Positions 1,104 to 59,098 of a stretch of DNA of 64,000 nt are shown piece by piece. Under the pieces are notes generated by a model, which made no database searches, was not told the origin of the DNA, and saw only the letters and a program-made list of their open reading frames with translations. The position numbers and the translations under genes were made by a program. Position 1 is the stretch's first letter; every line of letters begins with the position of its first letter. This stretch comes from Ceratodon purpureus (Eukaryota; Streptophyta; Bryopsida; Pseudoditrichales; Ditrichaceae): positions 10,354,896 through 10,418,895 of the forward strand of contig CM026422.1 in assembly GCA_014871385.1 (NCBI GenBank). Reading direction: 5' to 3'.

Positions 1104-3898
1104 ATGGGGAAGAAGTATGAAAGTGGGGTGAGTTATGGATCGGTGGTGCGCAACAGATTGAAGTTTCTGATTCCTGCCAGCATACTGCTCGTGTTCGTCG
1201 TCTGGAACTCCTCTTCGCTTTCGCCCTTCGACGCCGCTTCCAATGGCCCTGTCTCTTACACCATTCTCTCAGACCAGGTATTACCTAACTTTCCATTTTG
1301 GGGTCGAATCGCCAGTTTCCGGCTGTCTTTCAGGATTTAGGCCTTCCTTCAAATCTTATGGATCCCTCCTGCAACTTCCTTCCACCACGTTTCTAGTCCT
1401 AACGAGCCCACCATTCCGCCTCCTTGAATTCATTGCACATGAATCAAAGTCGGGGTGAAGTCTCCGCATTGTGCAAGTTGCTTCGTTTTTCAGAGTGGTA
1501 AATTGTGAGGTGGGACTGAGTGGGCTGCATGTGCCACTTCCGAATATGTAGATTCTCCGATTAGTGTAAGTGTTCCGACTTTAGTAACTCGTGCCGAAAG
1601 CGTTTCTTTCTTCGCTACTTACTGGCCGAAATCTCCCGCCAGTGCACGAGTTCGTGGGTTAGTAGAGAGGGTGGGGCCGGGGCTGAGTCCGAGATTTGGG
1701 CGGTGAGATGACGATGAGCAGTAATGGGAGGTCGATAAGAAGCGACTTGAATTCCGCGGCAGCATGTGTGGTTTCCTGAATCGTATCTATCAGCTGACGC
1801 TTTACCCGAATTGCAGGATCATCACAACGTGCAAGATGGTCGACACGAAATGTCGAAGACGGAAGCCGAAGCAATCGCAGCGCAGTATGAGAATCTAAGG
1901 TCCACGACTCCGTCCCTGAGAAAACCTGACGAGACGTACGAAGACGAGTTTGAGAAGGAGACGGTTGAAGAGACTCCTGTGCGATCTGAACAATCTGAGG
2001 TAACTCCTGCAATATCTGAGGAAGCATCTCCCGCTGAAATTGAAGTTGAAGAAACCCCCGTTCTATCTGAACAGGCTCCCGGTGAGTCAGAAAAAATACA
2101 AGTGGCTCCTGCTCAGACGGATGTTTTAGAGGAGGCTCCGGCCGAAACTGTAAAATCAGTGGAGGCTCCGGCTCTAACTGAAGGGTCAAAGGAAGCTCCG
2201 GTTGTCGCAGAAGACTCAGTGGAGCGTCCAGCCCAGACTCAAGATGCTCCTCTTAAAACAGAAGAGGCTCCAAGGCAAACAGAAGCGGTTCCAGTTGAAT
2301 CTGAAGTGGTGTCGCCTAAAACTCTAGTGGCTCCCAGCCAAGCAGACCTGTCGAACCTCGAAAATGTGAGGCAGGAAGCGACTCGGAACCCGGACAGCGG
2401 TAAGACGGAGGAAGAGGAGGACGCTGCACCGGTTGTGAAGAGAATGGAGGAAGACGAGGAATTCTCACGAACTGTTGAAGAAGTGGAGACCGTAGCGGAC
2501 GAAGAGAACCCGTTAGGGATAGACCCGGAGCGACTCCCTTTAATTCTTGGGAACAAGACGCACTTGGCTGGCACCGACGAATGGAAGTTAGGTCCTCTCG
2601 GTTCCGATTTGAAGTACATGGAAGAATCGATCCGAGCAACAATGTTGCCGTACGTCACCCGGAAACCCACAAACTCGGTAGAGGAGACTTGTGAAGGGAA
2701 GTACGTGTACGTCTATGACCTTCCAGCAGAGTACAACAAGGATCTTGTGGGGCGGTGCGACAGTTTATTCTCGTGGTTTAGTATGTGTCCATACGTTGTA
2801 GATTCCGGGAGAGGTTTGCCTGTCAATGCGGTGGACAATGGGACGCAGATTTTTGTGCCGGGTAACAAATGGTTTAATACGCATCAGTATGCTCTGGAGA
2901 TGATCTCCCATGCGCGGATTTTGAAATACAAGTGTCGCACTGAGGATAGGGAGAAGGCGAATTTGTTTTACATTCCGTTCTATGCAGGGCTTGATGTGAT
3001 TCAGTGGCATTTCGATCCGAACACCACGAAAGAGAAGAAGGATGCGTTGTCGTTGAAATTGATGAGTTGGCTTGTGAAGCAAAAGGAGTTTGTGCGGCGA
3101 CAGGGCAAGGATCATGTGCTCGTGTTGGGGAAAATCTCATGGGATTTCCGGCGGCAGCCAGATGCATTCTGGGGGAGCCGTATGCTTCAGTTTCCAGAGC
3201 TGAAAGAAGTGACGAGGTTGATGATCGAGCGTGACCCGTGGTCTGATCACGACATTGGCGTCCCGCACCCGACGTACTTCCACCCGACATCCGCGTCTGA
3301 CATCGACGCATGGCTGGCGCACATTAAGTCACAGAAACGTGAATACTTGGTGACGTTTGTGGGTAAGGAGCGGAAGAACGACCCGACGAATCCCCGCACA
3401 GCGCTTGTCAGACAATGCATGAACGTGACATCGGCAGAGGACTGCAGATTCGTGGAATGCAATAAGGATAAGTGCTTACACGCTGCATTCGTGACCAGAG
3501 CCTTCTTGGCGACGCATTTCTGCATGCAACCCCCAGGCGACAGCCCCACGCGCCGCTCCGTCTTCGACTCGCTCATCGCGGGATGCATCCCAGTCTTGTT
3601 CCATCCTCAGACGGCGTACACTCAGTACCCCTGGCACTTGCCCCGGAACGAATCTCTCTATTCGGTGTACATCCCTGAGGAGGAAGTCATTAAAGGAACC
3701 GTGAACGTTGTCGACGAATTGAAGAAGATATCCGTCGAGCAACGCAACGCCATGCGGGAATATATCATCACCACGATGATTCCGGGGTTGATTTACAGCG
3801 AGCCTGGAGCCGATGTGTCTCCCTATAGAGATGCATTTGAGATTTCTCTCGACCAGGTCTTGCATCGGACGAAGCTGAGCTTGGATCAATCTCAATAA
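1104..3898 (+). CDS. GT47 exostosin-family glycosyltransferase, MUR3/XLT2-like (xyloglucan galactosyltransferase type)
   Basis: Two exons, 1104-1277 and 1817-3898, joined in phase 0 (CAG|GTATTA ... TTGCAG|GAT), encode 751 residues. The start is the ATG at 1104, which has A at -3 and G at +4; the frame is open upstream but has no earlier ATG. Residues 19-34 form one hydrophobic segment near the N-terminus, so the protein is predicted to be a type II Golgi membrane protein. Residues 59-349 are an acidic stem rich in Glu/Ala/Pro triplets. From residue 350 (CEGKYVYVYDLP) to the end lies the exostosin/GT47 domain, with FNTHQYALEMI, NLFYIPFYAGLD, FVGKER and FCMQPPGDSPTRRSVFDSL followed by AGCIPV. 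In plants this clade adds galactose or related sugars to xyloglucan side chains. The donor and acceptor specificity cannot be read from sequence. The stem is longer and more repetitive than is usual for the family. A polyadenylation-like AATAAA lies at 4307. Confidence 0.9.
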
Positions 3899-6550: not shown

Positions 6551-6835
6551 TGTTTCTTCAAAACTCAATGACAGTAGATTATGTCAAGTCCATTGCCCAA
6601 TGGTGGAAGAGCTCATTGCCGAAGTCTTGGTTTGAAATTCTATTTGTACCAGAAAAGTCATACTTAAGTATTTGAAGACAGACTATATCCCATGTCATTC
6701 CGATGTCATTCCTGGCCCACCCACATTGGAGCACCTGTGTGGAGTAGGTATGTGGAGTACGTAACATACTAAAATAATCACTCTAGCTAATAAAATTTTA
6801 CAAAGTGGCTTGAGCAACACCTCTAGCACAATACC

Positions 6836-6903
6836 CAGGAATGCTATCTTGTGAGCGGTGAGCGGTGAGCAGTGAGCGGTGAGCACTAAATTTTCAATTT
6901 TTT
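6836..6903 (+). repeat. Left terminal inverted repeat
   Basis: The arm matches the reverse complement of 11479-11546 with only three differences, all within the outer seven bases. Its core is five tandem 7-mers (GTGAGCG, GTGAGCG, GTGAGCA, GTGAGCG, GTGAGCA) at 6851-6885, followed by CTAAATTTTCAATTTTTT. The tandem 7-mers may be transposase-binding sites (inference). Confidence 0.9.
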
Positions 6904-7099
6904 GACTATTTATTTGATATTTTGAAATGATTTTGTATGACATGGCATATAGGGGACCTATGACCGTGGAAGGTGTTTTAGGGTACATTCCCAAAAGAAT
7001 GGCTTCTAAATTGATAAATGTAGAAATTTACACCCAATTCATACCCGTATAAATTGTGATTATTTTTTCATATATCCTATCAATTCCACGCCATGAAGA

Positions 7100-7400
7100 C
7101 CAAGAGGAAAAAAAAAAAAAAATTAAAAAAAAAAAAGAGAAAAAAATAAATAAATGAAAGAAAGAAAAAAGATTAAAAATAAATAATGAAAAGGAATATA
7201 GAGAAAAAAAAAATTAAAAAATGAAGGAAAATAGGAAGAAAAGAAAGAAAAATAAATAAAACAACGAAAGAAGAAAAATAACGAATAAATAAATAAAATA
7301 AATAAAACATAAAACATAAAAAGAAATTAACAAAAAAAGATAAACAAAAAAAATGAATGCATACATATAGGAGAGAAAAAAGACAGATAAAAGAAAATTA
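7100..7400. repeat. Low-complexity A/G-rich tract
   Basis: About 300 bp composed almost wholly of A with scattered G and T (AAAGAAAG, AATAAATAAA types). It lies inside the left half of the transposon. No coding content; open frames on the minus strand are poly-Phe artefacts. Confidence 0.85.
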
Positions 7401-7583
7401 AAACAAAATTAGGTGAAGAACGGATATACACAACGGCTTTTGCAGATGAACGTGGCTTCTAGTTTTTGGGGATGAATAATTTTTCATCCAAGTGTTGGAT
7501 GACTGATTTAAAGGTGAAGAATTAATTAACTGATAGTTAATTACTCCTAAAACGGACTTGGAATTTGTGTACGTAGGAGACTC

Positions 7584-7719
7584 CAAGTAATTACTAGGGG
7601 TGCCCAAGTACCCCAAGTAATTACTACGGGTGCCCAAGTACCCCAAGTAATTACTACGGGTGCCCAAGTACCCCAAGTAATTACTACGGGTGCCCAAGTA
7701 CCCCAAGTAATTACTATGG
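7584..7719. repeat. 30-bp minisatellite, four and a half units
   Basis: The unit TTACTACGGGTGCCCAAGTA + CCCCAAGTAA repeats with an exact 30-bp period at 7591, 7621, 7651 and 7681, and starts again at 7711. Units differ only at one or two positions. Because 30 is a multiple of three, the minus strand reads a decapeptide repeat (YLGYLGTRSN), which is a consequence of the repeat rather than a protein. Confidence 0.92.
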
Positions 7720-8008
7720 GTATTTGCATAATAGGGAAGGGAAAATTACATGAGAAAGGTTTAAAGAGAACCACATTTTATTGTGATGCTTCAAGCTGTA
7801 ACCAAGGAAAGTTCAACTTCTAAAAATATTAGTACCATCTTTATAATTTAATCATGTATAAAGTCAATTTAAAATATATGACTGGTAGAGAAATTCACAC
7901 AGAAGTAGAGTAAAGTGAGGTTAAGGCAAAATATAAAATCCAAAGCCAAAGCTATCATATGATATATAAGTAGGGAAAACATAACAATATAGAGTAAATA
8001 TGCAATGA

Positions 8009-10323
8009 TCAAGTAGACATCTCGTCATCGCTACAAGTACCAATCCAACCATGATAAGAATCGCTATCACTAGATAATTCCACTCTGGCATCTTCTGCAG
8101 CTACGTCAAAATATATTTCAGCATCACGACAAATGCTATCACTGTCAGATGAAATAGATGGAGAAGGAGCAGCTAAATAAGCTTGAGCCTGCATCTCTGC
8201 ATAATGTGGAAGCTCTAAAGGTCTAACTGGACTCCTTATCTTGCTAAGATGGCGCGAGATAATAGAGCCACCAATGTCATTCTTCAACGCTTTCTTCCGA
8301 CTGCACATGACAATTTCACAGTTTAATAGAGGTTAATCAAAACTTTTTAAAAAAAATAAACAAATGTCAAACGAATGTAGAGACTTACTTACAAGAACGC
8401 TTGGGGGCGGTCTTCCTCTCAGGCTCATCATCTGACTCAACCGGACGTTTCTTCTTCGGTGAAGGCACAAGAATTGGAGTAGACTCAACCTCCTCCGTGC
8501 TTGGAAGAAGAGCAAACAACACCTGATTGTACAAGGTGGTGTCAGACTCAAAGCCTATGACATGACGCCGGAGACTCTTCGATGCTCGAATGGAAGCACC
8601 TGCACAGAAATTAGAACTCCAAGACATAAGTAAAAATTATAAAATGAAATACAAAAAACTTTTAAACAAATAAAAAAAAACAAATTAATACCTGTAGAAG
8701 CTGTGAGATCCATGACAATGTCATTCTCAACCGTGCACAAATCAATTAGAGCTTGCAAGAGGTTAGAAGTCTTCTCCCGTGCTCCTCTGAATGGCTCACC
8801 AGTCTCTGAATTAATTGTCAGAGAATCTGCAGTAATCAAATTAGTGCAATGTCCATCAGAGGAGAGCTTGATGCCTTGGGCACCAAGCTCAGCCCTATCA
8901 TGAAACTAGAACTTAGACCTTGGGACATCCTCCTCCACATTCTCCATTTTGATGAAGCACTTGACCATAAAAGTCTTGTGCTGGCGTGGATAACGATCTG
9001 GAATAGTCAAGGGAAGACCATTGATTGCAAACCACTTGGCCTCCTCCTGGAAGTTAGCCCACTCTGCCCAGGAAATAAGCTCATTCGAAATGAACTTTGA
9101 ATCAGGGTAAAATACAATCAAAGCTCCATCATCCTGCAGAAACTGCATAGCAAACTCAAAATGGGCCTTAATCCATGCAGACTCCATTTTCTTCCCTGCT
9201 GAAATCTTGGGGTGCTTGTTCCAGTAAGGAATCTCACCATCCTGCCCTAAACCTGGAACTGGCAAATCCTCTGGAACATCAAAAATGATAAGGTCCACAA
9301 CAGCCTCAGCCTCTTCACCTCCAAAATTCCTAGCCTTGGTACCAAGATTCCCCTTGATCCAATGCTTGATCTTGCTCCAAATCTCAGGCTCATCCTCCTC
9401 CGATAAAGAAGTAAACAAATCCAAAATGCCCATAGGGCAATCATTGATGATCTCAACACTAGTGTCTACCTCATCCAACTGCGAGCATGGAATCGTGTAG
9501 ATAGTCTGAGAAGGCATGGGGGTAGAAAAAAGAGGCACCTGAGGAGCTACAGGAACTATGGCAGCCTGCATGCTACTGCCTGAAGGAGAAATGCCAACAT
9601 GAGACATCAACTGCTCCGGCCCTTCCTTCAAAACTAACTTGGCCAACTCTCTGTTCCTTGCTGCCACTTCTTTCTTCAGCTTCACTTCCTGCTCCTTCTC
9701 TTTCTTCTTGTCCTCCTTCTCCTTCATCTTTGCCGCTTCCTTAGCCTTCCTCTCAGCCACCTTCTTCTTCTGTCTCTCAGAAAGGCCTGCATCATCACCA
9801 ACCTGGGAGATATCCTCCTCCAAATCCACCATGCCTTCATCCAGAAGCTGCTTCATTAAATTCTCACAACTTGCTTTAAGACCTCTCTCCTCCCAGGGCA
9901 ACTATCATTCTCCTTGAGCTCAAGGTACCAAGGACACTGAAGCAGATGAGGAGCTCCAAAATGCCTCCTCTGATAATCTGTAAAGATGCATTCACTGCTA
10001 GAGACATCGACCCACTTCTTAAACCGCTGAGGAATATCCTTCCTGTCAATGGCACCCTTAACAACCAACTCCCTCCAGAAATACCTCAAGATAGCCCGCT
10101 TCATAGCATTCTCAGCACCAGCCTGGTTGAGAAAAGGCTCTTTCTTTGTATAAGTGCCAGCCTTAGGAAAAAAACTCTTAAATGCTTTCTCCCACAAGGT
10201 CAAGGAATGAGACTCAATCCATGAGCCAATATCATCAACAGGGTTAGGTAAATCCTCTGTCCTCAAAACTATCATGTCCTCCTCTACAATCTTGTCATAA
10301 CGAATGACTGCCTCCTCCTCCAA
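8009..10323 (-). pseudogene. Class-beta DNA methyltransferase-like gene inside the transposon, broken
   Basis: Exons on the minus strand are about 10323-8692, 8599-8389 and 8300-8009, with two 92-bp introns in matching phase (ACAG|GTATTA ... GTGCAG|GT; TTGTAA|GTAAGT ... GTGCAG|TCGG). The order is an N-terminal region (DIGSWIESHSLTLWEKAFKS), a Lys/Glu coiled coil, a region with VDLIIFDVPEDLPVPG and GALIVFYPDSKF, then RGAREKT, MDLTASTG and RRHVIGFESDTTLYNQVL. Catalytic motif IV preceding the SAM-binding motif I is the class-beta order of N6-adenine/N4-cytosine methyltransferases. The expected DPPY/SPPY at motif IV reads DVPE, so catalysis is doubtful. There are two lesions: a frameshift near 9900 and an in-frame TAG at 8906, after which the same frame continues to the motif I exon. 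The tail is Ser/Asp-rich with basic KRS-NRKK. The frame opens at a possible acceptor (TTTTTTCAG) at 10324, so an upstream exon may exist. Confidence 0.75.
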
Positions 10324-10386
10324 CTGAAAAAACAATCAATTGCGGAACTCAAAACCAAGTCATGACTTTTTATATGAAGAAGGCAT

Positions 10387-10968
10387 ATGAAAAGGGGCAC
10401 GAACTTGACCATCAAAGAGATTTTGGCTCTTGAAGAGGCCGGCTTCCAACTCCAACAACGTGGAGTACTATCACCTCGTCGTCAGTTCCAGGTTTCTGCT
10501 AATATGCCGCTTCCAAGGAGTCATTTCCCGGTTCCTGTCAATCCGGATACACACCCAACGACTCGAAACGGATATGCCATCAGGAGAAGTTCTGACGCTC
10601 CTACCTCCGACCACCGAAACAAGTGGAGCAGCGCGGGTCTCATGAACAACTATTGGATTACAAATGTCACATCGATTCCATATCCAGGATTTGGCTGCGT
10701 CATCTCCTTGAAGAGTCCAAGTGAAACAATATATTGTATCACCATCACGGACTTCCCTGGATGTACTTGCCCCGACTTCATGAAAATGACTTCTGAAACC
10801 CTTGGCAAAAGAGGCCAGTGGAAGTACTGCAAGCATGTTTATTATATCTTCCGCTATCTATGTGAGATGGATTACAAGGTTGATACTTTTATGCACGCCC
10901 CTAGCTTTAGCTTCAACGAAGTTATGCGTGTTCTGGAGATGGCCAAAGTTGCTGAACCGCTTCAGTAG
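10387..10968 (+). CDS. SWIM zinc-finger protein encoded within the transposon
   Basis: A 193-residue frame begins at ATG 10387. The C-terminal half contains a SWIM-type finger: C126-x-C128, then C148-x-H150, within ITDFPGCTCPDF and WKYCKHVYYIFRYLC. SWIM fingers are typical of Mutator-like transposases and of proteins derived from them, where they bind DNA. No DDE catalytic core precedes it, so this is either a truncated transposase C-terminus or an accessory protein of the element. It is divergently arranged with the methyltransferase gene, about 60 bp away, so the two could share a promoter. An alternative short frame starting at the ATG near 10364 overlaps the start, so the N-terminus is uncertain. 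Confidence 0.6.
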   Translation: MKRGTNLTIKEILALEEAGFQLQQRGVLSPRRQFQVSANMPLPRSHFPVPVNPDTHPTTRNGYAIRRSSDAPTSDHRNKWSSAGLMNNYWITNVTSIPYPGFGCVISLKSPSETIYCITITDFPGCTCPDFMKMTSETLGKRGQWKYCKHVYYIFRYLCEMDYKVDTFMHAPSFSFNEVMRVLEMAKVAEPLQ

Positions 10969-11173
10969 TTTCTCATGGTTAGACTGTGAAATTGAGTGAC
11001 CAATACAACTCAAGAATACAGTATATGAATAGCGGAATTGATTTGTTTTGGATTTGTGTTAGATTTGAAATCCGCAAAGCATAAATGAAGGTCACTATTT
11101 ATTTATATATTGTCCACCTCTCGAATGTGTTCGCGGAAAAATGAAGACCAAAAAAAAAATTCCTACATGGTTA

Positions 11174-11213
11174 GGGAATATTCACCTCTCGGATCCGAGA
11201 GGTGAATATTCCC
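11174..11213. repeat. Perfect 40-bp palindrome
   Basis: GGGAATATTCACCTCTCGGA is followed directly by its exact reverse complement, centred on the BamHI-like GGATCC at 11191-11196. It lies about 330 bp inside the right end of the transposon, downstream of the SWIM ORF. It can form a 20-bp cruciform and might act as a terminator hairpin or a subterminal protein-binding site (inference). Confidence 0.95.
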
Positions 11214-11478
11214 TCATACCTTGGAAATATTCTTCTCAAGAATCCTCGACCACAAAAATGCAAAAAAAAATTTTAAAATAAAAATTGGATATACATTCTG
11301 TATGTGACTTAAACAGTAAGCTTTTCCCTCCAACCATTAACATTTGATGGATTCCACGGTTATAGGGTCTACTTTATTTGCGTTCATGTATTCCAACGAA
11401 GTGTCCTAAATTGCTCATCATTGTTTGATTGCTCTCCAAAAAATTCCAAAAAAAAAAAATTAAATTAAATTTTTACCT

Positions 11479-11546
11479 AAAAAATTGAAAATTTAGTGCT
11501 CACCGCTCACTGCTCACCGCTCACCGCTCACAAGATAGCGTCGCTG
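11479..11546 (-). repeat. Right terminal inverted repeat
   Basis: Reverse complement of the left arm, ending CGTCGCTG and followed by the target duplication GCACAATACC at 11547-11556. It carries the same five 7-mer GTGAGC(G/A) units on the minus strand. Confidence 0.9.
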
Positions 11547-11556
11547 GCACAATACC

Positions 11557-44130: not shown

Positions 44131-45055
44131 TACATGGCAATTGAAGATGAAAGCTATTCTCCGTAGAGAAAATGTTTGGAAATTAATTGAGTACCATGTG
44201 ACTCCTGCTATATTCCCAGCAGTTGTCCTAGGTACTCAGTATTTAGAAAACACTATGAGAAAGGCAAAGAATCTTGCCTTGTCTGGGATTCATTTGTCGG
44301 TTGTTGACTGCCTACTTGGTTTCGTCGCTAACTTCAACGACCATGTGTTTGCTTGGGAGGCGCTTTGGCTCAAATACTCCTCGGGAAATCAGTCGTACAA
44401 GCTGCTGCTCTCCAATCAGCTACATGCCCTAAAGATGCTAGAGGGTGGATCGATGGAAGACTACGTAAACAAGGCCACAAATCTCAAGAACAAGTTGTTA
44501 GCAATAGGAGATGGTATGAACGATCAGACAATTTGTCACTTCTATTGAATGGTCTACCGCGGAGTTATAAAGGAGTAGTTCAAACTCTGAGCAACCTCGA
44601 TATCATACTTTCGTTTGACCAACTGACAACAAGGCTACTCACTGCTGCACGACAGGAACAACGGACATCTCAGCTAGGAGATGAAGAAGCCCTCGATGCC
44701 TGCTTCCAGAACAGCCGCATATCTCCAGTTCCTCAGGACAATTCCCATTGCAAGTCAATATACCAATCACAATTATAATCATTTTCGAGGATTTCCACGC
44801 AGAGGCTCTTCACTTAGAGCAGGTAGAGGCCGAGGTTTTAGTCAACCTCCTATTATCTACTATCAATGTAGAAAAACTGGTCACATTGCAAGAGATTGCT
44901 TTTCTTCTCAAACGCAAGTTAATCGAGGACCACCAAACCAATCTGCCTATGCAAATGTGGTAGAAAACCTTGAGGTAACTTTAGCTGAGCTGCAGGAAAT
45001 GAATCATAGCAGTCCTTGGTATATGGACAGTGGTGCATCAACGCACGTTACATAA
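44131..45055 (+). pseudogene. Copia gag and protease region, broken
   Basis: The N-terminal copia gag pattern (WQLKMKAILRRENVWKLI, MEDYVNKATNLKNKLLAIGD) ends at a frame break near 44540 and resumes in another frame (LLNGLPRSYKGVVQTLS). A zinc knuckle near 44870 reads YYQCRKTGHIARDC, in which the first Cys is replaced by Tyr. The protease active-site segment WYMDSGASTHVT (about 45020) is followed directly by a stop codon. Confidence 0.8.
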
Positions 45056-45920
45056 ACAAGAGGCGATTTAACACAGCTCATTGAGTCTAGCTTAGGGAGA
45101 GGTATCACGGCAGTAGGAGGGGAGAGTCACGCCATTCATGGCATAGGCAATGCATTTGTAGACACAAATGCTGGTGAAATAAACATGACCAACGTCCTTT
45201 ATGTGCCGAGTCTCAAGAAAAGCTTAATATCTGTAGGTGCCATTGCCGATACAGGTTGTGTTGTTCTTTTCTCAATAGATCATTGTTATGTTCTTGACAA
45301 TAAGACAGAAAGGCAAATTATTGCCTCGGGATACAGTGACCCCATGAATGGGTTGTACAGATTATCCTCACCACATAAAGCAAATAGCATAGATAACAGT
45401 GGCATATTATGGCACAAGAGGTATGGACATCTTAGTCAAATTGGACTTAAGCATTTAGCAGAGCACAAAAGGGTTACAGGGATCCCAAACATCAGTTTCC
45501 TAACCACCGTATGTGAACACTGCTTAGCAGGGAAACCACATCGGGTAAGGTTTGAGCACATGGATCGGCAAACTTAATTCACTCCGACTTAGTTGGACCT
45601 CTCCCTGTCCAGTCTCTTGGCGGTTCGAGATACTTTGTGGTATTTATTGATGATTTTTTGAGAAAATCATGGACATATTTTCTGAAAAGTAAGGCCGAGA
45701 CATTAAGGAATTTTTTAGGTGTTCCAAAAGCTCATAGAATCTGAGACTAGGAGACAAATCCGGATTTTACACACAGATCGCGAAGGGGAATTTCTATCCA
45801 ATGACTTTACACTACATTGTCAAGATCACGGGATCTCTCGACAACTTACATAGGCACTCACACCGCAAGAGAACGGTGTTGCGTAGAGACAAAACAAGAC
45901 GATTATAGAAAGGGCAACTG
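45056..45920 (+). pseudogene. Copia integrase region, broken
   Basis: The frame contains YVPSLKKSLISVGAI and the pre-integrase zinc-binding domain (WHKRYGHLSQIGLKHLAEH, CEHCLAGKPHR) at about 45410-45540. The DDE core follows with frame changes: VGPLPVQSLGGSRYFVVFID at about 45590, a damaged TDREGEF segment at about 45775, and GISRQLT then PQENGVA ending at a stop. Much of the C-terminal part is deleted before the RT region. Confidence 0.78.
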
Positions 45921-46049
45921 ATCAATCCGATCATACAGAACCCTCAGCAATTCCTAATGCTGAGCCACCCATAGCAGAACCCTCAACTCCAGTGACCCCA
46001 AACTCCCCAAACCCACAGTCACCCCACCAAGTCGTCCCAACCATCCTAG

Positions 46050-47092
46050 AGCGTAGGTACCCAATTAAAACCCGAGCACCCTTTCAAAGACTTCGGGATC
46101 ATTGGACTTTGGCTACTGAGCTCATAGAGGAGCCAACAAGTTATGAGCTTGTAGTACAGGATGAGAGATGGAGAAAAGCAATGGATTAGGAAGTTGACTC
46201 AATTGCACGGAACCAGACTTGGGACATAGTGGATAGGCCATTAGACAAGACTCCCATCACCGCCAAATGGATATACAAGATAAAGAGAGGACCCAGAGGG
46301 AAGATAGAAAAATTAAAAGCCTGTCTTGTACCCCGTGGGTTTCAGCGAACCGCTGGCATTGACTATTTAGATACATTTGCCTTCATGGTTAGATCCTCCA
46401 CAGTACGAGCTCTCCTCTCAGTTGCAGCACAACGTAAGTGGCGCATCCGTCAAATGGATGTCAAAACCGTCTTTCTGAATGGCAAGTTAGAAGAAGAAGT
46501 ATATACCGAGATTCCTGCACGATTTCCATTAGCAAGTGACCCATCCAAAGTTTGCAAACTCAACCGGGCGTTGTATGTATTAAAGCAGGCACCGAAGGCC
46601 TGCTACTCAAAGATTGACTCCTAGCTCCTAAATCAAGGCATGGTGAGAAGTACAACAGACCCTAACATGTACTATTGAAAACATCATGGAAAAACCACAA
46701 TTATACTACTTTATGTAGATGATCTCCTACTAACAGGGGAGGATAATATTAGTATCAAAGAAATTCAACTAGCCCTAGCAAGAACCTTAGAAATGACTGA
46801 CTTAGGGACTACGAAGCTTTACCTTGGTATGGAGTTCTCTTATTTTCCATCAGGAATATATTTTCATCAAAGGGCTTACATCAGGTAATTGCTTCAAAGA
46901 TACCGCATAGAAAATTGCCTACCATGTAGCATTCCTATGGACCTAGGCCTTAGTCTTCAGAAAAATACCAACTCCCTCAAAGTAGATCCCGAATTGTACA
47001 GATCTCTGGTGGGAAGTCTGATCTATGTCACAAACACTAGGCCTGACAGTAGCTATGTTGTAAGCTCGGTAAGCAAGTACATGATGTGGTGT
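46050..47092 (+). pseudogene. Copia reverse transcriptase region, broken
   Basis: Recognisable RT segments are ITAKWIYKIKRGPRGKIEK, QMDVKTVFLNGKLEEEVY, LLYVDDLLLTGED (catalytic YVDD at about 46710) and MTDLGTTKLYLGMEF. The end is VDPELYRSLVGSLIYVTNTR and VSSVSKYMM. In-frame stops lie near 46187, 46620, 46676 and 46885. Homology ends before RNase H. Confidence 0.82.
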
Positions 47093-56562: not shown

Positions 56563-59098
56563 ATGTTGATGAACAAGAGGGCGAAGATGGCAGCGATGGT
56601 GGACGGCGAGGCGGTGGGCGCCATACTGAGCCACAAAGGCCACATAACCCACATTGGCCATGACACCAATGTGCCGGCCATGGCGTTCCAGCTGGAGCAG
56701 CAGCAGCCGCACACGAATGGGCTCATCGGGGCCACATTTCCGGAGAAGTCGTTGGTGGAGTTGTGCGATGTGAAGGCGCAGCACGACGATCCTCTGAATT
56801 GGGGGAAGGTCGCAGCTGGGCTGGCGGGGAGCCATGTGGAGGAGGTGAAGGCGATGGCGGCGACGTTCTTCGAGTGCCGAGAAGTCGTCCTCGAGGGCGC
56901 CGGGCTGAGCGTCGCGCAGGTCGCTGCCATTGCCCGGAGGCCGCAGGTGAAGGTGGTCCTCGATGCGGCCACCGCCAAGGCGCGCGTGGACGAAAGCTCT
57001 GACTGGGTGCTCTCATGCGCCATGAAGGGCACTGATACTTACGGCGTCACCACAGGTACATCGAAAATCCCCCCCGAAATTCCCCAAAATTCCACCGCAA
57101 TTACCTCTTCACACTCTCCCATTCCAATCGTTGAATTTATGAAACAGAGGAATTGGCTGCCATCAACTCAAACCTGGTTAAACATGCGATGATCTCGTCA
57201 CATTGTATTCTCCTGCAAATCGGAGAGATTTTTCAGTTCGGAATGATTGGGAGTAGCTGATCGGCGATTGGGTGTTTTTTTTTTCGTGTGGAATAGGGTT
57301 TGGTGCGACGTCGCACCGTCGGACGACGCGGGGAGCGGAGTTGCAAACCGAGCTCATTCGGTTTCTGAATGCTGGCATTGTGGGGAAAGGTGATGGCAAT
57401 ACGCTCCCCTCGTCCACCACACGCGCTGCGATGCTGGTGCGGACGAACACGCTCATGCAGGGGTACTCTGGTATCCGATGGGAGATTCTGGACGCGATGA
57501 AGAAGTTGCTGAATGCGAACGTGACACCGAAGTTGCCACTCCGGGGTACGATTACGGCTTCCGGGGATTTGGTCCCCCTGTCTTACATTGCGGGGTGCTT
57601 GACTGGGAGGGCGAATTCAAGAGCTTACACGGGGGACGGGAAGGAGGTGACTGCTGACGAGGCGTTACGGATTGCTGGAGTTGGGAAGCCATTTCAGCTA
57701 GAGCCGAAGGAGGGGTTAGCGCTCGTGAACGGGACGGCGGTGGGGTCGGGGCTGGCCGCCACCGTGTGCTTCGACGCCAATGTGTTGGTCGTGATGGCGG
57801 AGGTTCTGAGTGCGGTGTTCTGCGAGGTCATGCAAGGGAAGCCGGAATTCGCCGATCCGTTGACGCACAAGCTGAAGCACCACCCGGGGCAGATGGAGGC
57901 CGCAGCGATGATGGAGTGGGTGCTGGACGGGAGCAGCTACATGAAAGCGGCGGCGAAGCTGCACGCAACCGATCCGTTGAAGAAGCCGAAGCAGGACCGG
58001 TACGCGCTGCGAACCTCCCCGCAATGGCTCGGGCCCCACATCGAAACCATCCGAACCGCGACCCACGCCATCCAGAGAGAAATCAACTCCGTGAACGACA
58101 ACCCCCTCATCGACGTCGCGCGCGACATGGCGCTCCACGGCGGGAACTTCCAGGGGACGCCAATCGGCGTCTCCATGGACCAACTGCGCCTGTCGGTCGC
58201 GTCCATCGGCAAGCTCATGTTCGCCCAATTCTCCGAGCTCGTCAACGACTTCTATAACAATGGCTTACCCTCAAACCTCTCCGGGGGCCCCAACCCGAGC
58301 CTCGACTACGGCATGAAAGGCGCCGAGATCGCGATGGCGTCCTACACGAGCGAGCTCCAATACCTCGCCAACCCAGTCACCACCCACGTCCAGAGCGCAG
58401 AGCAGCACAACCAGGACGTAAACTCCCTCGGCCTGATCTCCGCGCGCAAAACCTCGGAGGCCATTGAGATCCTCAAGCTCATGACCTCTACCTACCTAGT
58501 CGCCCTCTGCCAAGCGATCGATCTGCGTCACCTGGAGGAGATAATGCAAGCCACCGTGAAGACCGTGGTCGCGAACGCGGCAAAGAAAACGCTCGTCATC
58601 GGCGTCAACGGCGCGCTCCAGCTCGCGCGCTTCTGCGAGAAGGAGCTCCTGCAGGTCGTCGACCACCAACCCATCTTCACCTACATCGACGACGCCTCCA
58701 GCATGGCATATCCCTTAATGCAAAAGCTTCGACAAGTCCTTGTCGACTTCGCCCTCAAGTACAACCAGTGTGACCGAGACGATGGGCTCTCGATCTTCAA
58801 CAAGATCCCGGCGTTCGAAGACGAGGTGAAGTCCCAGCTGGAGCTCAAGGTTCCAGCAGCGCGAGAGAATTTCGACAGCGGAGTGTTCGCAGTGGAGAAC
58901 AGAGTGGAGGACTGCAGGTCGTATCCGTTGTACGAGTTCGTGAGGACGGAGCTCGGCACGCGGCTGCTGACGGGCGAGAAGTCGCAGTCGCCGGGGACCG
59001 ACTTCGAGACGGTTTACGACGCCATGTGCGAGGGCCGGCATGTGGCGCCGTTGTTGAAGGTGCTGGAAGGCTGGCAATTCGCGCCTGGACCGTTCTAA
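56563..59098 (+). CDS. PAL: Phenylalanine ammonia-lyase
   Basis: Two exons, 56563-57055 and 57297-59098, with a 241-bp phase-1 intron (CCACAG|GTACATC ... GAATAG|GGTTTGG), encode 764 residues. The intron lies inside [19 protein letters not shown], the conserved intron site of plant PAL genes. The start is ATG 56563, with a nearby alternative at 56569. Ala252-Ser253-Gly254 in [17 protein letters not shown] forms the MIO electrophile by self-cyclisation, and Tyr160 in the TDTYG loop is the expected catalytic base. Other family blocks are [40 protein letters not shown] and [15 protein letters not shown]. The enzyme deaminates L-phenylalanine to trans-cinnamate in the cytosol, entering phenylpropanoid metabolism. 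The protein is about 50 residues longer than angiosperm PALs, mainly at the N-terminus. The coding sequence is strongly G/C-rich compared with its flanks. Confidence 0.97.

Follow-up and report, generated by a model that had tools for sequence, protein, structure and literature searches.

The element in the window derives from a 15.5-kb DNA transposon by a unique internal deletion, and its methyltransferase-like gene is the inherited second gene of a transposon family and not a recent capture. Past mobility of this family, recurrent pairing of its two genes, and selection on the second protein were all evident in the host genome. We read the window element as a non-autonomous deleted copy of a moss two-gene family whose second protein is most likely a DNA-binding factor that shields the element or tunes its transposition, a reading to which we give about an even chance.

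Boundaries and terminal repeats of the window element

The window is the whole stretch of DNA that was analyzed, 64 kb corresponding to C2:10354896-10418895 of the 362.5-Mb host genome (G000). A sequence-only reading of this stretch had described a bounded 4711-bp element with inverted ends and a perfect 10-bp duplication, and our analysis confirmed this description. The element occupies 6836-11546 (4,711 bp) and is flanked by the target-site duplication GCACAATACC, with the left copy at 6826..6835 and the right copy at 11547..11556. The left terminal inverted repeat (TIR; 6836..6918, plus strand) includes tandem copies of the 7-bp unit GTGAGCG at 6851-6884, and the right TIR lies at 11464..11546 on the minus strand. 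The inverted arms at 6835-6918 and 11464-11547 were 84 nt long and 88% complementary, with a core of 61 bp (6843-6903 and 11479-11539) that was 100% complementary. The 14-mer GCTATCTTGTGAGC occurred at both ends with zero mismatches and a third time in the window with two mismatches; three matches were reached in 0 of 100 shuffles.

A perfect palindrome of 42 bases, its two 21-nt arms directly adjoining, lies at window positions 11173-11214, after the SWIM open reading frame (ORF) and before the element's right end. Elsewhere in the window, a long frame at 1766-3898 resembled by eye an exostosin-type glycosyltransferase, fragmentary frames at 44141-46624 a decayed Copia-type retrotransposon, and a long frame at 57272-59098 phenylalanine ammonia-lyase.

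The window copy lacks the middle of a full-length element

A full-length element, copy A, was found on host C9, spanning 15,507 bp including its duplications, TTCGAAGTGC, and containing both genes and the TIRs. Its left part consists of a TIR followed by the minus-strand methyltransferase-like gene (C-terminal exons, exon N4, a long intron, and exons N3, N2, and N1), and its right part consists of an intergenic region, the plus-strand transposase gene, and a TIR. The transposase gene of copy A consists of three open stretches of 599, 174, and 465 codons; a stop separates the first from the second. Copy B, on host C5, retained the left end and the methyltransferase exon; the transposase and right end were not found in the 20 kb examined.

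The window element aligned to both ends of copy A with approximately 11.15 kb of the middle absent, which placed the internal-deletion junction at 10355..10393. Among the 40 scored of 124 host candidates, the 121-base junction stretch (10310-10430) was whole only at the window, with its left part found elsewhere at 8 places and its right part at 31. The methyltransferase exon of the window was 99.1% identical to those of loci L010 and L017 and at least 86.6% identical to all 32 matching host loci, indicating that the window copy is young.

Both genes of the window copy are remnants. The methyltransferase-like gene (8009..10325, minus strand) is 5'-truncated and broken. With splice sites inferred, its exons lie at approximately 10325-8692, at 8599-8389, and at 8300-8009 (the last exon), separated by intron-like gaps read by eye at about 8691-8600 and 8388-8301. 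The first of these exons has a frameshift near 9900 and a TAG stop at 8906-8908, both recognized against eight homologs. Because the frame opens at an internal splice-acceptor-like site, where Q-LExEA also occurs in homologs P0002, P0003, P0007, and P0008, the upstream exons are missing from the window copy. The earlier proposal of a methyltransferase-like gene with introns is thus borne out by a Pfam match (below) and the intron-like gaps, but the frame is broken and the 5' exons are missing.

The SWIM ORF (10387..10968, plus strand; 193 amino acids) is the C-terminal end of a transposase from which the upstream part of the exon and the catalytic exons were deleted. It corresponds approximately to residues 255-447 of long relatives and shows the SWIM-like pattern CxC...CxH; a search of this ORF against Pfam returned zero families at E<=10. 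We considered that this short ORF might be a stand-alone gene, as P0019 and P0022 share its start residue, and dropped this candidate because P0085 has Met for Val inside a long exon and the window junction is unique. The head-to-head arrangement claimed from the sequence alone reflects a real, multicopy pairing with a SWIM-coding gene, although the ORF in the window is only a transposase stump.

Recurrent head-to-head pairing and mobility in the host genome

Host counts were lower bounds: scoring gave at least 79 methyltransferase exons from 3,849 candidates, at least 94 transposase exons from 3,019, and at least 150 N1 exons from 1,852. A transposase exon lay within 30 kb on the 5' side of 62 of the 79 scored methyltransferase exons, head-to-head in all 62 and with a median gap of 9.1 kb, versus a chance expectation of about 0.6 such neighbors at even density. 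On the 3' side, none of the 79 had a transposase exon within the same distance, and 17 had no scored transposase within 30 kb in either direction. An N1 exon, the first exon of the methyltransferase-like gene, was located between the methyltransferase and transposase exons, on the methyltransferase strand, in 62/62 pairs. Starting from the N1 exons with at least 53% identity (114 of the 150), 81 had a transposase exon within 15 kb, again always head-to-head (81/81). Other copies with unrelated interiors would have spoken against a family with two fixed genes; instead, the 62 head-to-head pairs share both.

Another 36 of the 150 N1 exons, at approximately 46-50% identity to copy A and many with near-equal scores, point to a second, younger subfamily, which the methyltransferase and transposase exon searches left unlisted. 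A ParB-like identity for N1 was considered but found no support: phrog_1033 matched at just E 0.25, and comparing profiles with two ParB proteins gave a probability of 0.11%.

We probed the ends of 16 copies: copy A, 5 copies with one end located beforehand, and 10 chosen among the 62 pairs, mostly well preserved. Both ends were seen in 13 of the 16, and in the remaining 3 the left end fell outside the examined stretch. Perfect 10-bp duplications, all different, flanked 12 of the 13 copies with both ends; at L059/L060, where both ends were probed, the duplication was not found. Furthermore, the window inverted repeat occurred less than 1.5 kb from 7 of 30 other methyltransferase-exon loci. The ends are thus not confined to a single copy: these 12 copies share the same ends but have different 10-bp duplications, and the methyltransferase-like protein of the family shows the purifying selection described below. 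As judged from identical ends and a 99%-identical exon, the family appears to have been recently active.

A likely Mutator-type transposase

The signature of MULE transposases is a DDE triad, a CxxH motif between the second D and the E, and a SWIM finger near the C terminus. The window SWIM ORF alone had 29 relatives, and a query that combined the SWIM region with P0037, a longer relative, had 153, the best 120 of which were examined. Long relatives of approximately 445-500 amino acids start at an acceptor-like position and extend through MPSCNLAETVHNKW as far as the SWIM finger. A host frame of 1,206 amino acids (L038), which includes an in-frame intron-like stretch and represents a transposase of about 1,200 amino acids, contains D536, D602, C631xxH, E767, and a SWIM finger at 1139-1163; these residues were read by motif, and catalysis is predicted. 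The transposase of L003, from a second source, has the same DDE, CxxH, and SWIM motifs.

In profile searches, the L038 frame matched no transposase family in Pfam and NCBIfam at E<=10. The best match of a related exon (L003:1944-3374) was Pfam Transposase_mut at E 0.018 and 14.3 bits, below the cut-off of 21, and P0009 reached 10.5 bits against Pfam SWIM, below the cut-off of 19.6. TIRs, a Mutator feature absent in some MULEs, are present in the window and in other host copies. The 10-bp duplications of the window and of 12/13 copies are inside the 8-11 bp Mutator range given in the relevant part of PMC6446971. From these structural traits and one sub-threshold profile match, the family likely belongs to the Mutator superfamily.

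A methyltransferase fold with altered but conserved motifs

The minus-strand frame of the window, translated across the frameshift and the stop with X in their place, matched Pfam N6_N4_Mtase at 3.3e-8 and 34.2 bits (cut-off 26.7). The domain search proposed in the sequence-only reading therefore succeeded for this gene but not for the SWIM ORF. PF01555 was matched by 4/4 spliced host domains (one at 36.0 bits, cut-off 26.7) and by just two of the nine members of alignment A1, several of which end before motif I. A profile of spliced domains found the adenine methyltransferase DpnA (5hfj) as its best, though modest, solved-structure match at 6e-4, covering RGAREK through motif I, and CcrM only at 0.87.

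Class-beta enzymes usually have [DNS]PP[YFW] as motif IV. For 29 of the 30 best loci a second exon could be spliced on, and 22 of these 29 spliced copies were stop-free. Motif IV read FDVP in 22/22 stop-free copies, the next residue being E in 21 of them and Q in 1, and D-x-P-E was invariant in all nine rows of A1. Motif I read DLTAST in 22/22, followed by G in 21/22, and an acidic ESD after motif I was kept. The exon itself (approximately 532 codons) was stop-free at 23 of the 30 best-scoring of 79 loci and, in the wider set where the reading extends into the intron, at 27 of 79.

Median NG86 dN/dS values were 0.20, 0.16, and 0.18 across 422 of 435 pairs (dS 0.05-0.5) of the 30 best-scoring of 79 loci, a sample biased to conserved copies, which lowers dN. 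At low dS, the medians were 0.39 (5 pairs, dS <0.02) and 0.23 (8 pairs, dS 0.02-0.05), and the pair L001-L002, from another source, had a dN of 0.030 and a dS of 0.301. These substitution patterns indicate that the methyltransferase-like protein is under purifying selection, with dN/dS of approximately 0.16-0.20 in the 30 best copies. Taken at the level of sequence, assignment to this fold family is well supported, and ordinary catalysis is not supported.

Relatives outside the host

Relatives of both genes were found on intron-bearing contigs (L001, L002, and L003) of AVDCRST_MAG81, which is titled an uncultured Synechococcales cyanobacterium. These contigs are probably plant, and probably moss, DNA binned in error, so that this public bacterial genome is probably contaminated. 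In AVDCRST_MAG81 both genes are on separate contigs with no overlap detected, and the host inverted repeat was looked for on the L001-L003 contigs and not found; we therefore make no claim of one joint element there. At L001:1-400, a run of inverted repeats around GGGTCTCGGATCCGAGACCC directly precedes the first exon of the methyltransferase-like gene. Scans of viral contigs with alignments of the methyltransferase (A1), the SWIM region (A2), and the transposase exon (A4) confirmed no relative, and phage records gave no match.

Possible functions of the second protein

In the model that we favor, the transposase would cut and paste the element and would also move deleted copies, such as the window copy, in trans. 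The methyltransferase-like protein would bind the element's own DNA, and the bound protein would then shield the element from host silencing or tune its transposition, acting as a VANC-like and perhaps non-catalytic factor and not as a classical modification enzyme. Two observations lead us to favor a VANC-like role: motifs IV and I have changed but are conserved in their changed form, and copy A has an intronic tandem array that mirrors the targets of VANC21. According to the part of PMC5735166 that treats them, VANC21 target motifs sit in tandem repeats, including introns of accessory genes. In copy A, the one host copy in which the intron array was examined, the intron between N3 and N4 holds 6.8 copies of a 457-bp unit (99% match), and a related 383-bp array fills the rest (L034:7691-10000 and L035:1-1520). 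TRF found no tandem array in L001, which carries the same gene from another source, and this slightly lowered our confidence both in the favored reading and in an independent VANC-like origin. The window element has shorter tandem repeats, including a 30-bp repeat (4.6 copies) at 7583..7721, downstream of the methyltransferase-like gene. The repeat-based argument for a VANC-like role is thin. Also counted against the favored reading were the 17/79 unpaired methyltransferase exons, L059/L060 without a duplication, the dN/dS sample of best copies, the modest 6e-4 match, and the AVDCRST_MAG81 genes on separate contigs without the host inverted repeat. In a more specific version, a class-beta DNA methyltransferase of prokaryotic type would have become, within a lineage of moss DNA transposons, an anti-silencing factor that binds specific DNA sequences without catalysis, keeps motif IV as DVPE under selection, and has tandem repeats within its own gene among its targets. 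This would represent an independent VANC-like origin; we offer it tentatively and consider it rather doubtful.

The same data bear on other explanations. Despite its non-canonical motif IV, the second protein could be a working DNA methyltransferase for N4-cytosine or N6-adenine, by which the element marks its own DNA. The Pfam match, the profile match to DpnA over the motif-I region, purifying selection, and the retained ESD are all consistent with such an enzyme. The replacement of DPPY/W by DVPE (E in 21/22 copies) and of DPFxGSG by DLTASTG, likewise in A1 homologs, argues against it, so that self-marking, one of two roles suggested by the sequence-only reading, is weakened and we consider it unlikely. 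Constant head-to-head pairing with the transposase fits a transposition partner without an epigenetic role, one that would help in targeting, end pairing, or integration, much as has been suggested for mudrB-type proteins. Second ORFs occur in known MULEs, and mudrB is apparently needed for integration according to the pertinent section of PMC6446971, but a DNA-methyltransferase fold would be an unusual choice for such a role, and we hold a partner function to be just as improbable as an active enzyme.

The sequence-only reading also suggested a captured host gene. A functionless Pack-MULE-like capture of a host methyltransferase gene is what the window copy alone, with its broken and 5'-truncated gene, would look like. 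This explanation is already contradicted by multicopy pairing and selection: the gene is complete in full-length copy A, 62/62 pairs have N1 in between, dN/dS is well below 1, and relatives of both genes exist in another source. We consider capture very improbable, and the gene instead belongs to the family by inheritance.

Comparison with known systems

Only a few examples of transposon escape from plant silencing, VANDAL among them, have been explained. In the abundant moss family described here, a DNA-methyltransferase fold that is under selection and has an altered catalytic motif travels with a transposase. This moss offers a testbed for whether a transposon-borne relative of a modification enzyme can control silencing of its element and whether a DNA-methyltransferase fold can work usefully without DPPY/W.

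The bacterial class-beta methyltransferases CcrM and DpnA belong to the same Pfam family and have motif IV before motif I, but the moss protein differs from them in DVPE and DLTASTG in place of DPPY/W and DPFxGSG and in a long, multi-exon N-terminal extension. SET is a protein-methylating domain. A table in PMC6446971 gives SET for 14 Phytophthora members, and in the main text of that article the words methyltransferase and methylase are absent. Other MULEs, as covered in part of the same source, resemble the moss family in SWIM-bearing transposases, 8-11 bp duplications, and extra ORFs that are sometimes antisense. Retrotransposon DNMTs and Dam-like N6A methylases (dinoflagellates, Klebsormidium, and DIRS) are also DNA methyltransferases encoded by transposable elements, with one charophyte case in the relevant portion of PMC5890265. 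Those are retroelements, and their enzymes, some of them demonstrably active, are of the C5-cytosine or Dam type, whereas the moss element is a DNA transposon with a class-beta domain and DVPE. Fungal DNA transposons carrying TET/JBP genes (KDZ, hAT, EnSpm, and others) likewise have a DNA-modification-type gene thought to counter silencing, as outlined in sections of PMC12730594, but their enzyme oxidizes 5mC, whereas the moss element has a methyltransferase-like domain. In that account, Kyakuja (KDZ) has 7-bp duplications and no TIRs, and KDZ membership of the moss element is ruled out by its 10-bp duplications and TIRs.

The closest functional parallel that we propose is VANDAL/VANC of Arabidopsis, a Mutator-superfamily system. 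Both are plant elements, the moss one likely of Mutator type as well, with a transposase and an accessory gene, and the intron array of copy A recalls the placement of VANC targets in tandem repeats and accessory-gene introns (PMC5735166, in part). VANC proteins have DUF1985/DUF287 regions where the moss protein has a methyltransferase-like domain, and anti-silencing, the lowered methylation of its element, is demonstrated for VANC, whereas for the moss family it is suggested by functional analogy. A literature search at the level of titles and abstracts did not turn up any DNA transposon that carries a class-beta methyltransferase-like gene. The Mutator-like transposon itself is of a known type, and what appears to be new is the kind of second gene that it carries.
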